Positions 30,136 through 39,791 of a DNA stretch of 64,000 nucleotides are shown in pieces (within the stretch, counting starts at the first letter, position 1; each line of letters begins with the position of its first letter). Where the stretch lies: NCBI RefSeq assembly GCF_000317575.1, contig NC_019748.1, positions 372,001 to 436,000 on the forward strand. Reading direction: 5' to 3'. The stretch comes from Stanieria cyanosphaera PCC 7437 (GTDB taxonomy: Bacteria; Cyanobacteriota; Cyanobacteriia; Cyanobacteriales; Xenococcaceae). The notes under the pieces were generated by a model. It was not told the origin of the DNA. It did not search any database and saw nothing but the letters and a program-made list of their open reading frames with translations. The translations under genes and the position numbers were made by a program.

Positions 30136-33100
30136 ATGAGCCAGACACAGCGCACAGTTTTAATGATTGATGATAGCCAAGAAGACTGTGAGCTTATCAA
30201 GCGTTATTTACAACAGCAAGAAGATTATCTTTACAATTTTATTCAAACTGAAACAGGAGAAGAAGGATTAAAACTTTATGGTCGTTATCAACCAGATGTC
30301 TTGTTGCTTGACTATCAACTAGCTGACTTAACAGGATTAGAATTTCTCAAACAACTACAAACTCAGACTCGGCAGTTATGTTTGCCAGTAATTATTGTCA
30401 CGGCTTTGGGAAATGAAGCGATCGCAGTACAATGTCTTAAAGCAGGCGCACAAGACTATTTAGTAAAAGAACAAATTTCTGCCCAGAAGCTTTTACTCGC
30501 AATTGATAGCACCATTGAACGAGTAAAACTACAACTACATTTAAACCAGCGCATACAGAGTGAGCGAGTTATGGCTCACATTACTCAACAAATATATCAA
30601 TCATTGGACTTAGATCAGGTTCTTCAGACTACAGTCGATCAAGTAAGGCAGTTTCTTAAAACTGATCGCGTGGTGATCTTTCGGTTTGAATCAGATCATA
30701 ATGGTAGAGTTTTGACAGAATCTTTAGATTCTAAATATCAATCGCTTCTGAATGCTGAAATTGAAGATATTGGGTTAGTTGAGGCAGAAATCAAGTTATA
30801 TCACCAAGGACAAATTAGTTCTCTGTCCAATCTTGAAAATAAGGCAATTGATTCTCAAATTCAGGTACAAGCAGAACTAGTAGTACCGATTTTACACGAA
30901 AAGCAGTTGTGGGGATTATTGATTGCTCATTCTTGTCAAAAATCTCGTTGGTGGCAACCGTTAGAAATTGAATTACTGCAACAATTAACCACTCAAGTTG
31001 CGATCGCTATTCGCCAAGCAGAATTATATCAACAAACACAAGCTGAACTTCAACAACGCAGAGAAGCAGAGACAATTCAAAAAGAAAGTGAAACTCGATT
31101 TCGCATCATGGCAAACAATGCCCCCGTGATGATTTGGATGTCAGGAGTTGATAAACTATGTAACTTTTTTAACCAACCTTGGTTAGATTTTACTGGTAGA
31201 ACCTTGAAACAAGAATTAGGCAATGGTTGGACTCAAGGAATTCATCCCGAAGATCTTGAACGTTGCTGGAATACTTATTCATCTTCTTTCGATCTTCGTC
31301 GAGAGTTTAAGATGGAATATCGTCTCAGAAGGGCTGATGGAAAATATCTTTGGGTTTTAGATCATGGTGTGCCACGTTTTTGTGAGGAGGTCAATTTTGC
31401 TGGCTACATTGGTTCTTGTATCGAAATTAATGACCGCAAGCGTGTAGAAGAAGAACGTCAAGAAACAGCAGAAGCTTTACGAACCAGCGAAGAATTTAAA
31501 CAGCGTATCTTAGAAAGTAGTAGCGATTGCATCAAATTACTAGATCTTAATGGTCGTCTCCTCTATATGAATGCAGGAGGAATATGTTTGATGGAAATTG
31601 AAGATTTCACCTGTTTTCTCAACGCCGAGTGGGTTAATTTTTGGCAAGGTGAAAGCCAAGCAGCAGCCCGCAAAGCGATCGCTACAGCTAAAGCAGGTAA
31701 GATAGGAAAATTTCAAGGTTTGTGTTCTACTGCCAAAGGTACATCTAAATGGTGGGATGTTGTGGTTACTCCGATCCACGATGCTACTGGGCAAGTAATT
31801 CAACTTTTATCGGTATCACGAGATATTACCGACCGCAAACAAACTGAAGAAGCATTACGACAAAGCGAAGTACAATTTCGCACTCTGGCAGACAATATGT
31901 CTCAGTTTGCCTGGATGACAGATCAAAACGGCTGGATTTTTTGGTACAACCGTCGTTGGTTTGAGTATACTGGTACTACTTTGGAGTCAATGCAGGGTTG
32001 GGGATGGCAAAAAGTTCATCACCCAGAACATCTGGATCGTGTAGTCAGATATTTTAGCCACTGCATTAAAACAGGTCAATTATGGGAAGATACCTTTCCC
32101 CTAAGAGGAAAAGATGGCATTTATCGTTGGTTTCTCTCTCGTGCTACACCCATTCGCGATGAGCAAGGACAAATTATTTGTTGGTTTGGTACAAATACTG
32201 ATATCGACGACCAAAAACAAATAGAAGAAGCATTACGACAAAGTGAAGAAAGATATCGCTGTTTGGCAGAATTGATTCCTCAATTGATCTGGACAACAGA
32301 TACAGAAGGAGTTGTCCTCGATGTTAATCAACGCTGGACAGAATATACCGGTTTAACTCTAGCCCAAGCACAAAGCCAAGGCTGGGAAAACCTCGTTTAT
32401 CCTGAAGATTTACCTTCTCTGACTCAGCATTGGGCAGCAGCTTTACAAGCTGGAACTTACTACCAAGCGGAAGGTAGAATGCGAAGAGCAGATGGTTCTT
32501 ATCGTTGGCATTTGCATCAAGCTGTACCACAGAAAAATGAACAGGGACAGATTATCAAATGGTTTGGCACAGCTACAGATATTGAACTTCAAAAACAACT
32601 CGAAAGAGAACGCGATCGCTTGCTACAACTAGAACAATCGGCACGGGCAGCAGCCGAACAAGCCAACCGCGTTAAAGATGAATTTCTGGCAATTCTTTCC
32701 CACGAGTTGCGATCGCCTTTGAACCCGATTCTCGGTTGGACACAACTGATGCAATCAAATAAATTCGATTCGACTCGCATCAGTGAAGGTTTAGCAATTA
32801 TTGAACGCAATGCCAAATTACAAACTCAACTAATTGACGATTTACTCGATGTTGCTAAAATTCTTCGGGGTAAATTAAATCTCAATCTTGCTCCTGTCAA
32901 TTTAGAAGTAGCGATCCGTCAGGCAATTGAAACTGTAAACGCAGCAGCAGTTGCTAAATCAATTGTTATTGAGCCGTTAATAGCAAAAACTCGGTTAATT
33001 TCTGGTGATTATGCTCGTATTCAGCAAATAATTTGGAATTTACTTTCTAATGCAATTAAATTTACTCCCAACGGGGGAAAAGTAGAAATCCGCTTACAAC

Positions 33101-33792
33101 AAGTAGGAAATCAAGCTCAAATTATCGTGATCGATACTGGAAAAGGAATTAAACCCGACTTTTTACCATATATTTTTGAGTCTTTTCGTCAAGAAGATCT
33201 TTCCATCTCCCGCAAACACGGTGGTTTAGGGTTGGGGCTTTCTATCGTTCGGTATTTAGTCGAAGCTCACGGAGGAAAAGTTTCAGCCGATAGTTTAGGC
33301 GAAAATCAAGGAGCTACTTTTACAGTTGAATTACCACTGATCGAGATTGAGCCAGCTACAAATCAAACAGAAAGGTTACTTGAACACAAAATCGATCTAA
33401 CTGGCATTCGCATCCTAACTATTGACGATCATCCCGATGCCCGTTTGATTCAGACTTTATTACTCAATCAATACGGTGCAGAAGTAATGAGTGTCGCTTC
33501 TGTGGCTGAATTTTGGCAGGCTTTATCATCATTTCAACCTCATATTTTGATCAGTGATATTGGTATGCCAGAGGTGGATGGTTACACTTTACTTCGGCAG
33601 TTGCGTTCTTTACCCGCCGAACAAGGCGGTCAAATTCCTGCGATCGCTTTAACAGCCTATGCAGGAGAAACAGAACGACAAAAAGCGATCGCAGTTGGGT
33701 TTCAGCAACATTTAGCCAAGCCGATCAATTCCCATCAGTTAGTTCAAGCTGTAGTCAAACTTGTTTCTAAACCAACGAAAGAAAAACATTAG
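30136..33792 (+). CDS. Hybrid sensor histidine kinase with receiver-GAF-PAS4-kinase-receiver layout
   Basis: A 1218-residue cytoplasmic signalling protein. Order: receiver 1 (about 8-120, phospho-Asp59 in LLLDYQLADL), GAF (about 145-300), and four PAS/PAC units (about 318-440, 455-575, 580-700 and 703-825). HisKA follows with His856 in LSHELRSPLNPILGW, then HATPase (about 960-1075: NLLSNAIKF, DTGKGI, GLGLGLSIV). Receiver 2 has Asp1141 in ISDIGMPEVDGY. The GAF has the cyanobacteriochrome-like ending LWGLLIAHSCQKSRWW. However, the stretch before VVPIL has no Cys-His pair and looks shortened, so a bilin is not expected at the usual site. No membrane helix is seen. The signal and targets are unknown. 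No separate response regulator gene adjoins. Confidence 0.93.
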   Translation: MSQTQRTVLMIDDSQEDCELIKRYLQQQEDYLYNFIQTETGEEGLKLYGRYQPDVLLLDYQLADLTGLEFLKQLQTQTRQLCLPVIIVTALGNEAIAVQCLKAGAQDYLVKEQISAQKLLLAIDSTIERVKLQLHLNQRIQSERVMAHITQQIYQSLDLDQVLQTTVDQVRQFLKTDRVVIFRFESDHNGRVLTESLDSKYQSLLNAEIEDIGLVEAEIKLYHQGQISSLSNLENKAIDSQIQVQAELVVPILHEKQLWGLLIAHSCQKSRWWQPLEIELLQQLTTQVAIAIRQAELYQQTQAELQQRREAETIQKESETRFRIMANNAPVMIWMSGVDKLCNFFNQPWLDFTGRTLKQELGNGWTQGIHPEDLERCWNTYSSSFDLRREFKMEYRLRRADGKYLWVLDHGVPRFCEEVNFAGYIGSCIEINDRKRVEEERQETAEALRTSEEFKQRILESSSDCIKLLDLNGRLLYMNAGGICLMEIEDFTCFLNAEWVNFWQGESQAAARKAIATAKAGKIGKFQGLCSTAKGTSKWWDVVVTPIHDATGQVIQLLSVSRDITDRKQTEEALRQSEVQFRTLADNMSQFAWMTDQNGWIFWYNRRWFEYTGTTLESMQGWGWQKVHHPEHLDRVVRYFSHCIKTGQLWEDTFPLRGKDGIYRWFLSRATPIRDEQGQIICWFGTNTDIDDQKQIEEALRQSEERYRCLAELIPQLIWTTDTEGVVLDVNQRWTEYTGLTLAQAQSQGWENLVYPEDLPSLTQHWAAALQAGTYYQAEGRMRRADGSYRWHLHQAVPQKNEQGQIIKWFGTATDIELQKQLERERDRLLQLEQSARAAAEQANRVKDEFLAILSHELRSPLNPILGWTQLMQSNKFDSTRISEGLAIIERNAKLQTQLIDDLLDVAKILRGKLNLNLAPVNLEVAIRQAIETVNAAAVAKSIVIEPLIAKTRLISGDYARIQQIIWNLLSNAIKFTPNGGKVEIRLQQVGNQAQIIVIDTGKGIKPDFLPYIFESFRQEDLSISRKHGGLGLGLSIVRYLVEAHGGKVSADSLGENQGATFTVELPLIEIEPATNQTERLLEHKIDLTGIRILTIDDHPDARLIQTLLLNQYGAEVMSVASVAEFWQALSSFQPHILISDIGMPEVDGYTLLRQLRSLPAEQGGQIPAIALTAYAGETERQKAIAVGFQQHLAKPINSHQLVQAVVKLVSKPTKEKH

Positions 33793-33850: not shown

Positions 33851-36439
33851 TTAATTAATTCCAGCAGCGATTTGAATCACTTGTGCTAAATCTAAAATAG
33901 TTCTTTCTTCAGCAGGCACTAAACAAGGAAATACCGATAACCCTTCAATCTGATTAGCTGCTGCGGTAGTTTGAGCATCTAAAGTTACTAACGGTAAAGC
34001 AGCCAACACTGACAAGCTTTTTAGCGATCGCAAAAAACTCACAGGCTCAACCAAAAGACTACCATCAAGTAAAATAGCATCGATCTGCCAAATCCGAGCT
34101 AATAATTCTCCTTGCTCTAAACAATCGGCTTCAATAATACGATGATCGAGATGATCTAATCCAGCTTTCAACGAAAAGTCTAACTCCCAATTAACAGAAG
34201 TGATCGACTTATCACTAAGATTAGAATTGGGATGTAAACTCAGAATTGTTAAGCGTTTTTTCGGAAGAACTTCTGATTTAACAGGTGTAAACATCTGAAG
34301 CAAAGTTGATCTTTCTAAGGGAAATTTTAAACAACCATCTAATAACTGAATGTTATTAATACCTAACTCATCGCAATCACTTTTGAGTAGAAAAACAGGA
34401 ATTTTTTGAGTACGAACATCAGCTTTTAATAAAGTTAAAATATCGTCCGTAGTCAGCAAAGGTAAAGAAGCATTAATTAAAATTTTACTAGGTTGTAATT
34501 GACGTGCTTTTTCAAGTATTTCTATACCTGTTGAAGCCATCACTGGCTGATAACCAAACTCAAGCAATTGAGTAGTTAGCTCATTAATCTGGTTAGGATT
34601 GGTTACTCCTATTAAAATTTTTAAATTACGCTCTGTCACAATCGGAATATCATTAGATTCTAAATTCAAATTGCAATTAAAATTCTGGTTTGGTATCAAC
34701 AAAGTATATTCAATGCCATAATCTTCTTGAAATAAACAAGCAATATTTCCACCATAAGATTTAGCTATTTGTTGAGCAAGCATCAAGTCTAATTCCAAAT
34801 CTTTTTGCGGATGAGCTAGATTTTGTTGCGATTGAAGAGAAAGTTCCCAGGCTAAATCTTGAGAGTTTTCAGAGAAAGTTGATTTTGAATTTCCAATTGT
34901 AATAGCAATCCAATTTTTCCACTGTTTTACCGAAACAATAATCTCTGATTGAGTTGGAATTAGTTTTAAAACAGCTTTTAATAAACGAGACAAAATTTGA
35001 TGTAAACGAACTTGGTTTCCAGCAATAGTTTCTAGTTCAATTTCAAACTTTAATTGAGGATAATTAACTAAAGAGTTTTTTAAGGTAGTGTTATCTTCTA
35101 ATTTATTAAGCAGTTGTTGATATATTTCTTGACAAAAACTTTTGATTTCAATCTGTTCTAAATTTAGTGAAGTTTGATCGGTAGTTAAGCGAGTTAAGTC
35201 TAATAAATCATTAACTATATTGATTAATTTACGTCCACCACTATAAATTAACTCTGCATAGCGAGTTTGACGTTGATTTAATTGTCCCAATTTTTGTTCT
35301 TTTAAGAGACTTGATAATCCCACAATTGCTGTCAGGGGTGACTTTAGTTCGTGACTTATATGGCTTAAAAATTCATCTTTAAATTGATTGAATTGTTTTG
35401 ATTCAGAAACAGATTGAGGCTTGGTTAAATCCTTTGTTTTGGTTAAAGATTGAACTGCTAAGACTAACCAATAACTAACTCCTGAATCATTAAAAGGTAA
35501 ACGATAATAATGCCATAGCGGTTGAAGATTCGCATTTTTCTGAGAATTTATACCTAATTTATTACAACTCAACTTAGAATTAACTTCTTGCATTAATTCT
35601 AAGAATTGACCATTTTTAATAGGCAACAAGGAAGAAGGAGATTTGAATAAATAAGAATTGCTTTTTAAACAATAAGGGTCGAGTTTAATTGACTTAATTT
35701 CAGCTTTTTCAGAAGTTTCTTGACTAAAGTTGGGACTTGAATTGAATGAATTTTTGTCAGGAAAATAACAATGTATTTCTTGAGAAAAATGTATTTGCTT
35801 CCGCCAAACTTGATTGCGATATACAATCTTTCCTTGCTGAGTTTGAATACTTAAAGGTAGAGGAATTTGCTCAATTAAATTAAAATAATATTTTGGTAAA
35901 ACTGTGGTTAAATTATAATTGTTACTATTAGCCTTAGCCTGCTCTAGAACTAGATATTTCATCAATTTTTGACTGTCCAACCATCCTAAAAGTTTTCCTT
36001 CTCGATCAACTACTAAATAGTTGACTTGGTTACTAATAAAATGAGTTTCCGACTGAAGCTGAGACAAAAAACTTTCTCTGCTCATCTCAGATGTCAAAAT
36101 AATAGTAGGCTTAATGACAGACTGTAAATCACAAATAGAAGAAAATAACCCAATACTTTTACTGACAGTAGCAACTGATAGTGAAGATGACTTTTGTACT
36201 ACAGTCGAAGCTACTCCACCTGTAAAAGGGGAAAAGCTATTGAGCAACTCATTGCTTAACCACGAAAGTAAACTCTCCGAGTTAATTATCCCGATAGGGT
36301 ACTCTCGATCATTTAATACTGCGATCGCGTTAGATTGACTAGAGTTGAGTAAATTAAGTATTGTCGGCAAATTGGCTGTTTGCCTACAAGTAGGAATCGG
36401 ATCTACAAATTCTTTGAGCGTAAAACGAGAATTAGACAT
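33851..36439 (-). CDS. CBS-domain pseudo-histidine kinase with degenerate receivers, divergent from kaiABC
   Basis: An 862-residue protein. Residues 7-165 hold two CBS-like motifs (FTLKEFVDPIPTCRQTANLP; FISNQVNYLVVDREGKLLGW). A PAS-like region follows, then HisKA with His363 kept (ISHELKSPLTAIVGLSSLL). The ATPase domain (about 450-580) is damaged: the N-box reads SRLLKAVLKLIP with no Asn, the G1 box is IGNSKSTF instead of DTGKG, and the G2 box lacks Gly-x-Gly (LELDLMLAQQI). Receiver 1 (about 605-720) has INASLP where Asp is expected and no acidic pair at its first strand. Receiver 2 (about 735-862) has ILLDG but again no acidic pocket. It cannot be a normal kinase. The location, 270 bases from kaiA, suggests a clock-linked role, which is inference. 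Confidence 0.85.
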   Translation of the reverse strand: MSNSRFTLKEFVDPIPTCRQTANLPTILNLLNSSQSNAIAVLNDREYPIGIINSESLLSWLSNELLNSFSPFTGGVASTVVQKSSSLSVATVSKSIGLFSSICDLQSVIKPTIILTSEMSRESFLSQLQSETHFISNQVNYLVVDREGKLLGWLDSQKLMKYLVLEQAKANSNNYNLTTVLPKYYFNLIEQIPLPLSIQTQQGKIVYRNQVWRKQIHFSQEIHCYFPDKNSFNSSPNFSQETSEKAEIKSIKLDPYCLKSNSYLFKSPSSLLPIKNGQFLELMQEVNSKLSCNKLGINSQKNANLQPLWHYYRLPFNDSGVSYWLVLAVQSLTKTKDLTKPQSVSESKQFNQFKDEFLSHISHELKSPLTAIVGLSSLLKEQKLGQLNQRQTRYAELIYSGGRKLINIVNDLLDLTRLTTDQTSLNLEQIEIKSFCQEIYQQLLNKLEDNTTLKNSLVNYPQLKFEIELETIAGNQVRLHQILSRLLKAVLKLIPTQSEIIVSVKQWKNWIAITIGNSKSTFSENSQDLAWELSLQSQQNLAHPQKDLELDLMLAQQIAKSYGGNIACLFQEDYGIEYTLLIPNQNFNCNLNLESNDIPIVTERNLKILIGVTNPNQINELTTQLLEFGYQPVMASTGIEILEKARQLQPSKILINASLPLLTTDDILTLLKADVRTQKIPVFLLKSDCDELGINNIQLLDGCLKFPLERSTLLQMFTPVKSEVLPKKRLTILSLHPNSNLSDKSITSVNWELDFSLKAGLDHLDHRIIEADCLEQGELLARIWQIDAILLDGSLLVEPVSFLRSLKSLSVLAALPLVTLDAQTTAAANQIEGLSVFPCLVPAEERTILDLAQVIQIAAGIN

Positions 36440-36713
36440 AAATTTTTATTAGTCAAATTTCTCCTAAGCAGCCTAGAGTTACTAAATTTTCGTTAGGCTG
36501 TTGTTGTTAAATTTGGTTTGCTGTTTAAGCTGAAATTAAACAATCTGAGAAGAAGCTACTGCTTAATTATTACTTGAAATGAACAAGAGAATGCACTCTA
36601 TACTTACAATTAATTACAATTCTCATAATCATTCAATAAATGTTAAGTTTTTATAAGATTCTTGTCTAAATTAATTACAGGAGGATGGCAATCCTACTAT
36701 CACGACTGTGCCG

Positions 36714-37682
36714 ATGTCAAACCAGCAACATTACCCAGATTCATCCAAATATTCTGCCTCTGAACGACTTTTCCTTTGTCTGTTTCCTTCTAACCGACAA
36801 TTAGCTTCTTCGTTAAGTGATTTCCTTAGTCGCGATCGCTATAAACTAAAACTGATTGAACTAGCTAGTGATTTACAAGAGTTTATTGAACAACACAAAG
36901 AACAAATTGATTGTTTAATTTTTATTAAAGATAGTTCCTTTGAACCCATACTGACTCAATTAGTTCAACAAGGCATTTTATTACCAATTGTGATCATTGA
37001 TTCTACAAAAATTGCTAATCATAACGAACATGATTCTTTTGTTAGTTCGTTTTCGGAAGGATTTAATTGTTTAAAAAACAAAATTTATCACAACGCTGAA
37101 GTATGTCTAGCAAACAATCAGGTTGAGCAAATCGCTTCTGTGATCAATATAGCTATTACTAAGTTTCTCAATCTTGCGCCTAACTGTATTTTAGAAAAAT
37201 CTGCCTCAGAAACTCAATTAACTCAAAATTATCAAAGTTTCTTGCTACTTCAACAACGTCGATTAGCAGAAAAACTTAAGGAAAGATTAGGTTATTTAGG
37301 GATTTATTATAAACGTAATTCTCAAGATTTTTATCGGAATCTTTCTCAAGCAAAAAAACAAGAATTATTTCGTCAATTAAGCTCAGAATATCGTCAAATT
37401 ATTTTGAGTTATTTTAATGAAGAACAAGATATTAATAAACTAATTGATCAGTTTGTCAATCAAGCCTTTTTTGCTGATTTATCTGTTTCCCAGATTCTGG
37501 AAATGCACATGGAACTAATGGATGAATTTGCTCAACAACTTAAATTAGAAGGGAGAAATGAAGAAATTCTCTTAGATTATCGTTTGGCACTGATTGATAT
37601 TATTGCCCATTTGTGTGAAATGTATCGTCGTTCTATTCCCAGAGAAGATTTACCTTTAGATTTATTCTTTAGATTAGATTGA
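36714..37682 (+). CDS. kaiA: KaiA, circadian clock protein
   Basis: Stimulates KaiC autophosphorylation. This is the full-length form of about 322 residues. The N-terminal pseudo-receiver runs about 15-130 (LFLCLFPSNRQLASSLSDFL, DCLIFIKDSS, LPIVIID). A linker follows, then the C-terminal four-helix KaiC-binding domain (about 190-320: LKERLGYLGIYYKRN, EYRQIILSYFN, LIDQFVNQAFFADLSVSQIL, HMELMDEFAQQLKLEGRNE). The ATG at 36714 is preferred to a GTG two codons earlier. An AGGAGG lies 30 bases upstream, too far to serve either directly. It is first of the kaiABC cluster, with 98 bases to kaiB, and the promoter must lie in the 274-base spacer. Confidence 0.96.
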   Translation: MSNQQHYPDSSKYSASERLFLCLFPSNRQLASSLSDFLSRDRYKLKLIELASDLQEFIEQHKEQIDCLIFIKDSSFEPILTQLVQQGILLPIVIIDSTKIANHNEHDSFVSSFSEGFNCLKNKIYHNAEVCLANNQVEQIASVINIAITKFLNLAPNCILEKSASETQLTQNYQSFLLLQQRRLAEKLKERLGYLGIYYKRNSQDFYRNLSQAKKQELFRQLSSEYRQIILSYFNEEQDINKLIDQFVNQAFFADLSVSQILEMHMELMDEFAQQLKLEGRNEEILLDYRLALIDIIAHLCEMYRRSIPREDLPLDLFFRLD

Positions 37683-37780
37683 CAATATTCTAAATAAATT
37701 AGCAGAGATAATTTTCTCTTTTTCAATGCTAAGTTTATCTTTGGTACTTTTTTGAATATTATATTTTATTATTTTTTCTT

Positions 37781-38143
37781 ATGACTAAATTTAGAAAAAC
37801 CTATGTATTAAAGTTGTACGTTGCAGGAAATACACCAAGCTCAGTCAAAGCCTTAAAAACTTTAAAAAATATTTTAGAAAAAGATTTTCAAGGAGTGTAT
37901 GCCTTGAAAGTGATTGATGTACTAAAAAATCCTCAATTAGCAGAAGAAGATAAAATTTTAGCCACACCAACCTTATCTAAAGTTTTACCTCCGCCTGTAA
38001 GAAAAATCATCGGTGATCTTTCAGACCGAGAAAAAGTGTTGATCGGTTTAGATTTACTATACGAAGAAATTCGCGACCGCGAAAGCGACTACCAAAAATC
38101 TCGCGAAGGCACCAGTGAAGATGACCGCGAGTTAGAAATTTAA
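37781..38143 (+). CDS. kaiB: KaiB, circadian clock protein
   Basis: A fold-switching thioredoxin-like protein that binds phosphorylated KaiC and sequesters KaiA. The 120-residue sequence has the family core: [60 protein letters not shown] and [19 protein letters not shown]. It ends with an acidic, Asp/Arg-rich tail (about 103-120) that is a little longer than in the minimal 102-residue form. The gaps to kaiA (98 bases) and kaiC (85 bases) allow a kaiBC transcript with its own promoter, as known in other cyanobacteria. Confidence 0.97.
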
Positions 38144-38228
38144 CAATCTTATCCGTATCATTATTAGTTATTGTAGTTTTTACCTGTTTAAATAATCACT
38201 TAAAAAATTCCAAATTTAAACTCTCAAG

Positions 38229-39791
38229 ATGAACCAAGCAAATCCGAATAGTCCCCAACCAGAAGCGCAGTCTATTCCAGGAGTCAAAAAAATCCGAACC
38301 CTGATTGAAGGATTTGATGAGATCACTCACGGAGGAATGCCAGAAAATAGAACAACTCTGGTTAGCGGTACATCTGGCACAGGAAAAACTTTACTCGCTA
38401 TTCAGTTCCTTTATCACGGCATCAAACATTTTGATTATCCAGGCATATTTATCACTTTTGAAGAATCTCCTCAAGATATTATTCAAAATGCCCATAGTTT
38501 TGGCTGGGAACTACAAAGTTTAGTCGAAGGAGGGAAATTATTTATTCTTGATGCCTCTCCCGATCCCGAAGGGCAAGAAGTAGTTGGTAATTTCGATCTT
38601 TCTGCTCTAATTGAGCGAATTCAGTACGCAATTCGCAAATATAAAGCCAAATTAGTTTCAATTGATTCAGTTACAGCAGTATTTCAACAATACGATGCTG
38701 CCCCAGTTGTCCGCAGAGAAATTTTTCGTCTAATAGCACGTCTCAAACAATTACAAGTCACTTGTATTATGACTACCGAACGAGTAGAAGAATACGGACC
38801 AATTGCTCGATTTGGAGTTGAAGAATTTGTCTCGGATAACGTAATTGTGATTCGGAATGTTTTAGAAGGAGAACGTCGTCGCCGTACGATTGAAATTCTC
38901 AAACTACGCGGAACAACTCACATGAAAGGAGAATATCCTTTTACGATTACCAACGACGGGATCAATATTTTTCCTCTCGGCGCAATGCGACTTACTCAGC
39001 GTTCTTCCAACACGCGGATTTCTTCGGGGATCAAAATTTTGGACGAAATGTGTGGTGGAGGTTTTTTCAAAGATTCAATTATTTTGGCAACAGGGGCAAC
39101 TGGTACTGGTAAAACCTTGTTAGTGAGTAAGTTTTTGGAAGAAGGTTGTCGTCGCGGAGAAAGAGCAATTTTATTTGCCTATGAAGAATCGAGGGCGCAG
39201 TTATCCCGTAATGCTTCTTCTTGGGGCATTAACTTTGAAGAGATGGAACAAAAAGGCTTGCTAAAACTGTTTTGTAATTATCCAGAATCAGCAGGTTTAG
39301 AAGATCATCTCCAAATGATCAAATCAGAAATTACTCAGTTTAAACCCTCACGCATTGCCATTGATTCTCTTTCTGCCTTAGCTAGGGGAGTTACCAATAA
39401 TGCTTTCCGTCAATTTGTGATTGGTGTAACAGGTTATGCCAAGCAGGAAGAAATTACTGGCTTTTTTACGAATACTACCGATCAGTTTATGGGAACTCAT
39501 TCGATTACTGAATCCCATATTTCGACTATTACTGATACAATTCTACTACTGCAATATGTAGAAATTCGCGGTGAAATGTCTCGGGCAATTAACGTCTTTA
39601 AAATGCGTGGTTCTTGGCATGACAAAGGTATTCGCGAATATGTTATCAGTCATGGTGGTGCGGATATCAAAGATTCTTTCCGTAATTATGAACGAATTAT
39701 TAGTGGTTCTCCGACCAAAATTGCGATCGATGAAAAAAGTGAGCTTTCTCGAATTGTTCGTGGTGTCAAAGATAAAACTATGGACGAGTAA
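38229..39791 (+). CDS. kaiC: KaiC, circadian clock ATPase/autokinase
   Basis: A double-RecA hexameric ATPase at the heart of the clock. The CI domain has Walker A SGTSGTGKT and the Glu78-Glu79 pair in ITFEESP. CII has ATGATGTGKT and LFAYEES. The phosphosites are in HISTITDT: Ser432 and Thr433 here correspond to Ser431/Thr432 of the Synechococcus elongatus protein, and Thr427 to Thr426, a one-residue offset. The C-terminal A-loop and tail (DSFRNYERIISGSPTKIAID, then EKSELSRIVRGVKDKTMDE) that binds KaiA is intact. Everything needed for a standard oscillator is present. It ends 3 bases from the convergent winged-helix gene. Confidence 0.98.
   Translation: MNQANPNSPQPEAQSIPGVKKIRTLIEGFDEITHGGMPENRTTLVSGTSGTGKTLLAIQFLYHGIKHFDYPGIFITFEESPQDIIQNAHSFGWELQSLVEGGKLFILDASPDPEGQEVVGNFDLSALIERIQYAIRKYKAKLVSIDSVTAVFQQYDAAPVVRREIFRLIARLKQLQVTCIMTTERVEEYGPIARFGVEEFVSDNVIVIRNVLEGERRRRTIEILKLRGTTHMKGEYPFTITNDGINIFPLGAMRLTQRSSNTRISSGIKILDEMCGGGFFKDSIILATGATGTGKTLLVSKFLEEGCRRGERAILFAYEESRAQLSRNASSWGINFEEMEQKGLLKLFCNYPESAGLEDHLQMIKSEITQFKPSRIAIDSLSALARGVTNNAFRQFVIGVTGYAKQEEITGFFTNTTDQFMGTHSITESHISTITDTILLLQYVEIRGEMSRAINVFKMRGSWHDKGIREYVISHGGADIKDSFRNYERIISGSPTKIAIDEKSELSRIVRGVKDKTMDE

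Follow-up and report, generated by a model that had tools for sequence, protein, structure and literature searches.

A kaiA-linked family of hybrid histidine kinases in cyanobacteria, with a very probably kinase-dead member in Stanieria cyanosphaera

RetS of Pseudomonas and DivL of Caulobacter are atypical HisKA-family proteins, thought to pair with or steer another kinase. In some CBS-pair proteins, the tandem CBS module binds adenine nucleotides. As for the cyanobacterial clock, its metabolic setting has been studied mainly in one lineage. The pseudo-receiver of the clock kinase CikA is described as inhibiting autophosphorylation, binding quinones and binding KaiB (PMC12632262).

A hybrid histidine kinase homologue encoded beside kaiABC in Stanieria cyanosphaera PCC 7437 is considered here. 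No description of this gene or of its linkage to kaiA was found in the open-licence literature, as far as its texts were available (including PMC2633013, PMC5520375, PMC12084410, PMC12632262, PMC13421787 and PMC11372060), nor was there in it any paper on kaiA together with a CBS domain. Most subscription papers lie outside that literature, hence this is no proof of novelty. The family of kaiA-neighbouring kinases is apparently unstudied.

The locus and its family

The window, i.e., the whole stretch analysed, comprises 64,000 nucleotides. The features below are given with their positions in the window and, where applicable, the residues of the 862-residue protein.

33851..36439, minus strand: hybrid histidine kinase homologue of 862 residues, divergent from kaiA, very probably kinase-dead (open reading frame and translation; family and linkage)
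36254..36403, minus strand: first CBS motif, residues 13-62 (protein score of 29.1 bits with Pfam PF00571; matches of profile A5 to solved structures)
35942..36127, minus strand: second CBS motif, about residues 105-166 (second Pfam stretch; limits by eye from alignment A5)
35405..35893, minus strand: weak PAS-like region, about residues 183-345 (in one orthologue, PAS matches below threshold; otherwise by eye)
35183..35380, minus strand: HisKA dimerisation/phospho-acceptor domain, residues 354-419 (Pfam E 4.6e-17)
35351..35353, minus strand: codon of His363 (His in 123/123 aligned members covering the site)
34691..35020, minus strand: degenerate HATPase domain, residues 474-583 (22.5 bits, below cut-off; 5/5 scored residues lost)
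34274..34630, minus strand: predicted pseudo-receiver 1, residues 604-722, Asn at the Asp site (profile A3 against receivers 3.8e-18; Asn in 99/110)
33854..34267, minus strand: predicted pseudo-receiver 2, residues 725-862, hallmark domain of the family (weak receiver match, 0.004; profile A2 family-specific; dN/dS 0.13)
36440..36707, no strand: intergenic region of 268 bases separating the kinase homologue from kaiA, possibly a promoter region common to both (read directly)
36708..37682, plus strand: kaiA (Pfam KaiA 3.5e-64, KaiA_N 4.8e-39)
37781..38143, plus strand: kaiB (NCBIfam PRK09301 2.5e-60, above cut-off)
38229..39791, plus strand: kaiC (NCBIfam TIGR02655 2.5e-302, above cut-off)

The kinase homologue lies on the minus strand and the kai genes (36708-39791) on the plus strand, in agreement with the divergent arrangement noticed in a sequence-only reading of the window. 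That reading had also mentioned CBS-like motifs, which proved to be a real CBS pair: Pfam recognizes two stretches, and the family's CBS profile matches tandem-CBS proteins of known structure at up to 3.7e-21. The PAS-like region is defined by sub-threshold matches to PAS_4 and PAS_8 (E about 0.1). Across the family, the architecture consists of the CBS pair, the PAS-like region, HisKA, HATPase and two or three predicted pseudo-receivers. Elsewhere in the S. cyanosphaera genome, matches to the protein are confined to the HisKA-HATPase-first-receiver part, the next best at 1.5e-23. At 30136-33792, a large hybrid kinase (receiver, GAF, several PAS, HisKA, HATPase, receiver) is convergent with the gene, and a kinase frame occupies the equivalent position at the congener locus L184.

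The family was found in 103 of 386 cyanobacterial genomes with a profile of the last receiver, with a clear gap to weaker matches. This profile matched 105 genomes at 1e-6 and 103 at 3.2e-19 or below; the two weak genomes (G296, 5.8e-10; G133, 6.4e-7) were dropped, as were four weak second matches in genomes already counted. With the 862-residue protein as query, 98 of the 386 genomes matched at E 1e-30. The protein itself matches over its full length, shares the domain order of the family and has its hallmark receiver at the end, and 26 of the 27 genomes in the host's taxonomic family have a match. A scan of genome contigs with the protein returned one unrelated Bacillota kinase and was unusable. 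The locus tag all2883 and five others may denote orthologues in named strains; all2883 is listed in a table of predicted CRP sites, and the other five tags occur in no paper of the open-licence literature.

Whether the gene stays next to the clock genes across genomes had been raised in the sequence-only reading. It is adjacent to kaiA in 93 of the 103 carriers, the window's genome included, spanning 21 families and 54 genera. This count combines 86 genomes placed by coordinates and five more placed by those of the KaiA and last-receiver matches, all divergent, with two placed by a fetched stretch (G298 and G091). The head-to-head layout, shown in 91 genomes, and the start-to-start spacing (median 588 bases, 90 loci) would fit regulatory DNA shared with kaiA, the kinase then being a clock-controlled output regulator or serving the control of kaiA transcription, with the Kai proteins left untouched. 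However, the spacing ranges from 156 to 3065 bases, and therefore the layout does not call for one compact promoter common to both genes. We consider this explanation possible, though rather unlikely.

ATPase domain, receivers and selective constraint

A functional HisKA kinase combines the phospho-accepting His of the H box with the ATP-binding N, G1 and G2 boxes. The protein has the former, His363 within HELKSPL of a clear HisKA domain, and lacks the latter, both as the sequence-only reading had stated. In the alignment to intact orthologues, the N-box Asn is replaced by Ala489, the G1 motif DTGIGIP by NSKSTFS and the G2 motif GTGLGL by DLELDL, and all five scored residues are gone. The HATPase_c match of 22.5 bits (Pfam cut-off 26.4) compares with 89-102 bits in five orthologues that are intact, out of eight relatives put through Pfam; in the same scan, L170 reached 31.5 bits although its boxes are altered, and two of the eight gave no HATPase match. 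The losses are real and not sequencing errors, because a genome of the same genus (G396, 77% identity) carries the identical five. A pseudogene was likewise ruled out, the frame being open and full-length in two congeners at 77% identity. Judged by its residues, the protein is very probably kinase-dead. Single-sequence structure predictions of the HisKA-HATPase and receiver parts were discarded (mean pLDDT 39 and 32).

A canonical receiver has a phospho-Asp, an acid pair and a Lys, and neither receiver of the protein has the full set. Receiver 1 is a clear receiver by its relatives' profile; it has Asn at the phospho-site, lacks the acid pair and has the Lys at the strand-5 site in the alignment. 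In receiver 2, strand 1 does not end in acids and strand 5 lacks the Lys. The Asn and the missing acidic pockets had been noted from the sequence and are confirmed; the retention of Asp792 at the phospho-site of receiver 2 is an additional point. Both domains look like pseudo-receivers. By its residues, receiver 1 is a pseudo-receiver almost family-wide (Asn in 99/110 members, Asp in 4, Ser in 4). In receiver 2, the strand-1 acids are absent family-wide and the Asp is kept in 97/121 members; Gln776 and Trp784 never vary among the 121 rows covering them, and Cys839 is kept in 106/121. More than 100 further residues are present in 67 of 124 aligned members. This third receiver-like stretch has a weak receiver match (0.006) and resembles receiver 1 in a profile comparison (E 1.6e-6). 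Structures of the CikA or KaiA receivers were absent among the matches listed for the receiver profiles.

The sequence-only reading had proposed a catalytically dead scaffold as a new type of clock accessory. The very probable kinase death of the protein, the predicted pseudo-receivers, the CBS pair and the kai linkage are upheld. A family of dead scaffolds is not, because 92 of the 124 aligned members keep all five scored ATPase residues. Most members therefore look like catalytically competent kinases. At least one of the five residues is lost in 30 members, and two are too short to judge. Homologues with intact boxes and measured autokinase activity had been named as evidence against the proposal; the homologues exist, and no measured activity is known for them. 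The N-box Asn is kept in 104/122 members and lost in 15 of 24 determinable rows of the host's taxonomic family. The phospho-acceptor His is kept in 123/123, including all dead members covering the site, and the acid following it in 121/123.

A tree of 71 of the 124 rows was built with the ATPase and first-receiver columns left out; its bootstraps are unsettled and some long branches uncertain. On this tree, loss of the N-box Asn needs four changes, and the broader dead label eight, at least six of them forced by well-supported branches. The rows nearest the window protein and its congener, L185 and L194, keep the five residues, and have lost parts of the G1 and F boxes despite this. On this basis, kinase death is derived, having arisen in this lineage and separately in others.

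As for selective constraint, dN/dS against the congener was estimated with NG86 (95% codon bootstrap, dS about 0.5), since YN00 gave values in three of the six domains only. The estimates were 0.09 (0.04-0.18) for HisKA, 0.13 (0.06-0.21) for receiver 2, 0.22 (0.13-0.45) for receiver 1, 0.32 (0.18-0.48) for HATPase, 0.38 (0.23-0.62) for CBS and 0.41 (0.23-0.72) for the PAS-like region, all six intervals lying below 1. Moreover, 23 intact and 4 dead pairs were compared, i.e., 27 of 29; L130/L132, in which one glycine is changed, and L188/L204, whose ATPase parts do not overlap, were excluded. Median HATPase dN/dS was 0.09 in intact and 0.29 in dead pairs (p 0.002), so constraint on the ATPase domain is loosened in dead pairs without being lost. 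In receiver 2, with medians of 0.11 and 0.175 (p 0.07), there is hardly any relaxation. For HisKA, the medians were 0.02 and 0.235 (p 0.001). Three of the four dead pairs are relaxed in this domain, the pair of the window falling inside the intact range, and this relaxation speaks against a fully preserved phospho-acceptor role.

The relaxed ATPase and HisKA domains, the loss of all five scored residues and the further loss of receiver 1 in related genera (11 rows) could all be read as a kinase on its way out in this lineage, with no function beyond residual constraint. We think this improbable in view of the full-length frame in the congeners, the constraint on every domain, above all on the last receiver, and the near-complete retention in the host's taxonomic family. 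Judging by these substitution patterns, the gene in this lineage is not simply decaying.

Persistence of the linkage to kaiA

The kai linkage is strong. KaiA was found in 159 of the 386 genomes, and kaiA is present in 102 of the 103 carriers (Fisher 2e-50, uncorrected for kinship). As a control, 72 loci reaching 600 bases or more past the kinase gene were compared on the other side (1.5 kb), where the gene was homologous in 77 of 2212 inter-family pairs; within families, this held for 125 of 263 pairs of genera.

Homologues without kai linkage had been named in the sequence-only reading as evidence against its own proposal, and they exist marginally: 5 of the 103 carriers are unlinked, 4 end at or near contig ends and 1 lies beside a collapsed kai cluster. 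Of the unlinked, four (G123, G111, G157 and G203) carry kaiA on a different contig, the roughly 3 kb read upstream being free of it, and the gene in G111 lies about 4.3 kb from the contig end; G255 has the family gene and no kaiA match in its genome. In G097, G207 and G262, a contig end is reached at once or within about 0.7 kb, and the 1.7 kb that G105 has upstream on its contig contain no kaiA. In G326, the intact kinase gene (L092) stands beside a fused kaiA/kaiC remnant; at about 2251-2966 of this locus, the two remnants lie almost end to end and kaiB is missing. An ordinary hybrid kinase, functionally unrelated to kaiA and beside it through inherited gene order, would account for the five unlinked copies and the one beside the collapsed cluster, but it is very unlikely, as families share almost no gene order on the other side and kaiA is present in all carriers but one.

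These unlinked copies and G326 were also counted against the clock-related reading given below, as were G147, in which the kinase copy is broken and kaiA retained, and the absence of CikA and KaiA receiver structures among the matches listed. The same applies to the 57 of 159 kaiA genomes without a strong profile match. One of them, G036, has a KaiA 86% identical to a structure-bank KaiA, which we take to be that of the clock model S. elongatus. The KaiA in the genome of L170 is 99% identical to another structure-bank KaiA, presumably from Thermosynechococcus.

Some further observations concern the state of individual genes. Three stops lie inside the last receiver in G147 (G147:C1:539351-539587), and the adjoining kaiA is apparently intact. 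KaiA domain matches at G334:C1:927460-927774 and G300:C43:34907-35236 contain one in-frame stop each. In genomes of family f6, most KaiA frames measure about 120-205 residues and cannot accommodate the N-terminal pseudo-receiver; a third receiver-like stretch is frequent in the kaiA-linked kinase genes of these genomes.

Possible role and comparison with known systems

The reading we prefer, with roughly even chances of being right, is a family of kaiA-linked hybrid histidine kinases acting on the clock or its output, the dead form here working without catalysis. Most members would probably be active kinases or phosphatases reading a metabolic signal, plausibly an adenine nucleotide as the putative ligand of the CBS pair. 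Because their own receivers cannot take the phosphate, these may be used for binding or control, as in CikA. In the lineage of S. cyanosphaera, the protein, CikA-like in layout, probably acts through HisKA pairing and pseudo-receiver binding. The HisKA helices would maintain a dimer, possibly with another kinase, for which the pairing of RetS with another kinase is a precedent. Trans-phosphorylation of His363 by such a kinase would be possible, and a partner may be held by the last pseudo-receiver. That the CikA pseudo-receiver binds KaiB and inhibits the kinase counts in favour of the preferred reading (PMC12632262).

A kinase kept beside kaiA in 93 of 103 carriers from 21 families, and not found in the S. 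elongatus relative, is a candidate for a missing input or output of the clock. Furthermore, the repeated ATPase losses with the His retained are natural experiments on the non-catalytic parts. A more speculative and doubtful extension is a third clock kinase besides SasA and CikA. Across much of the phylum, it would be an energy sensor with CBS domains that reports the adenylate state to the Kai oscillator or to RpaA, and its absence from the S. elongatus lineage would explain why it was overlooked; catalysis would have been dropped repeatedly, with HisKA and the pseudo-receivers still doing the job.

Among known systems, SasA is likewise a clock-linked HisKA kinase, and the SasA-type model PRK09303 matches the protein at 46.6 bits. 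This score is far below the cut-off of 342 and the KaiB-like N-terminal domain of SasA is absent, which rules out membership. AMPK gamma and other CBS-pair proteins share the tandem CBS module, and AMPK gamma chains are among the weak matches. RetS and DivL chains match the protein at 5.7e-14 and 9.2e-9, since the HisKA-HATPase fold is common to them; they differ in having other sensors and no kai linkage. As for CikA, a search of the S. cyanosphaera genome led to one candidate, which was examined and is not CikA. The 862-residue protein is not CikA either, as it gives no GAF match with Pfam, a CBS pair standing in place of CikA's GAF. Among the matches listed for its relatives' receiver profiles, there was no specific one to the CikA receiver. 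Nevertheless, both proteins place a pseudo-receiver, in our case a predicted one, behind a HisKA-HATPase kinase, and CikA is tied to the Kai clock (PMC12632262, PMC13421787). In contrast to CikA, the kaiA-linked family has two or three receivers and is encoded beside kaiA.
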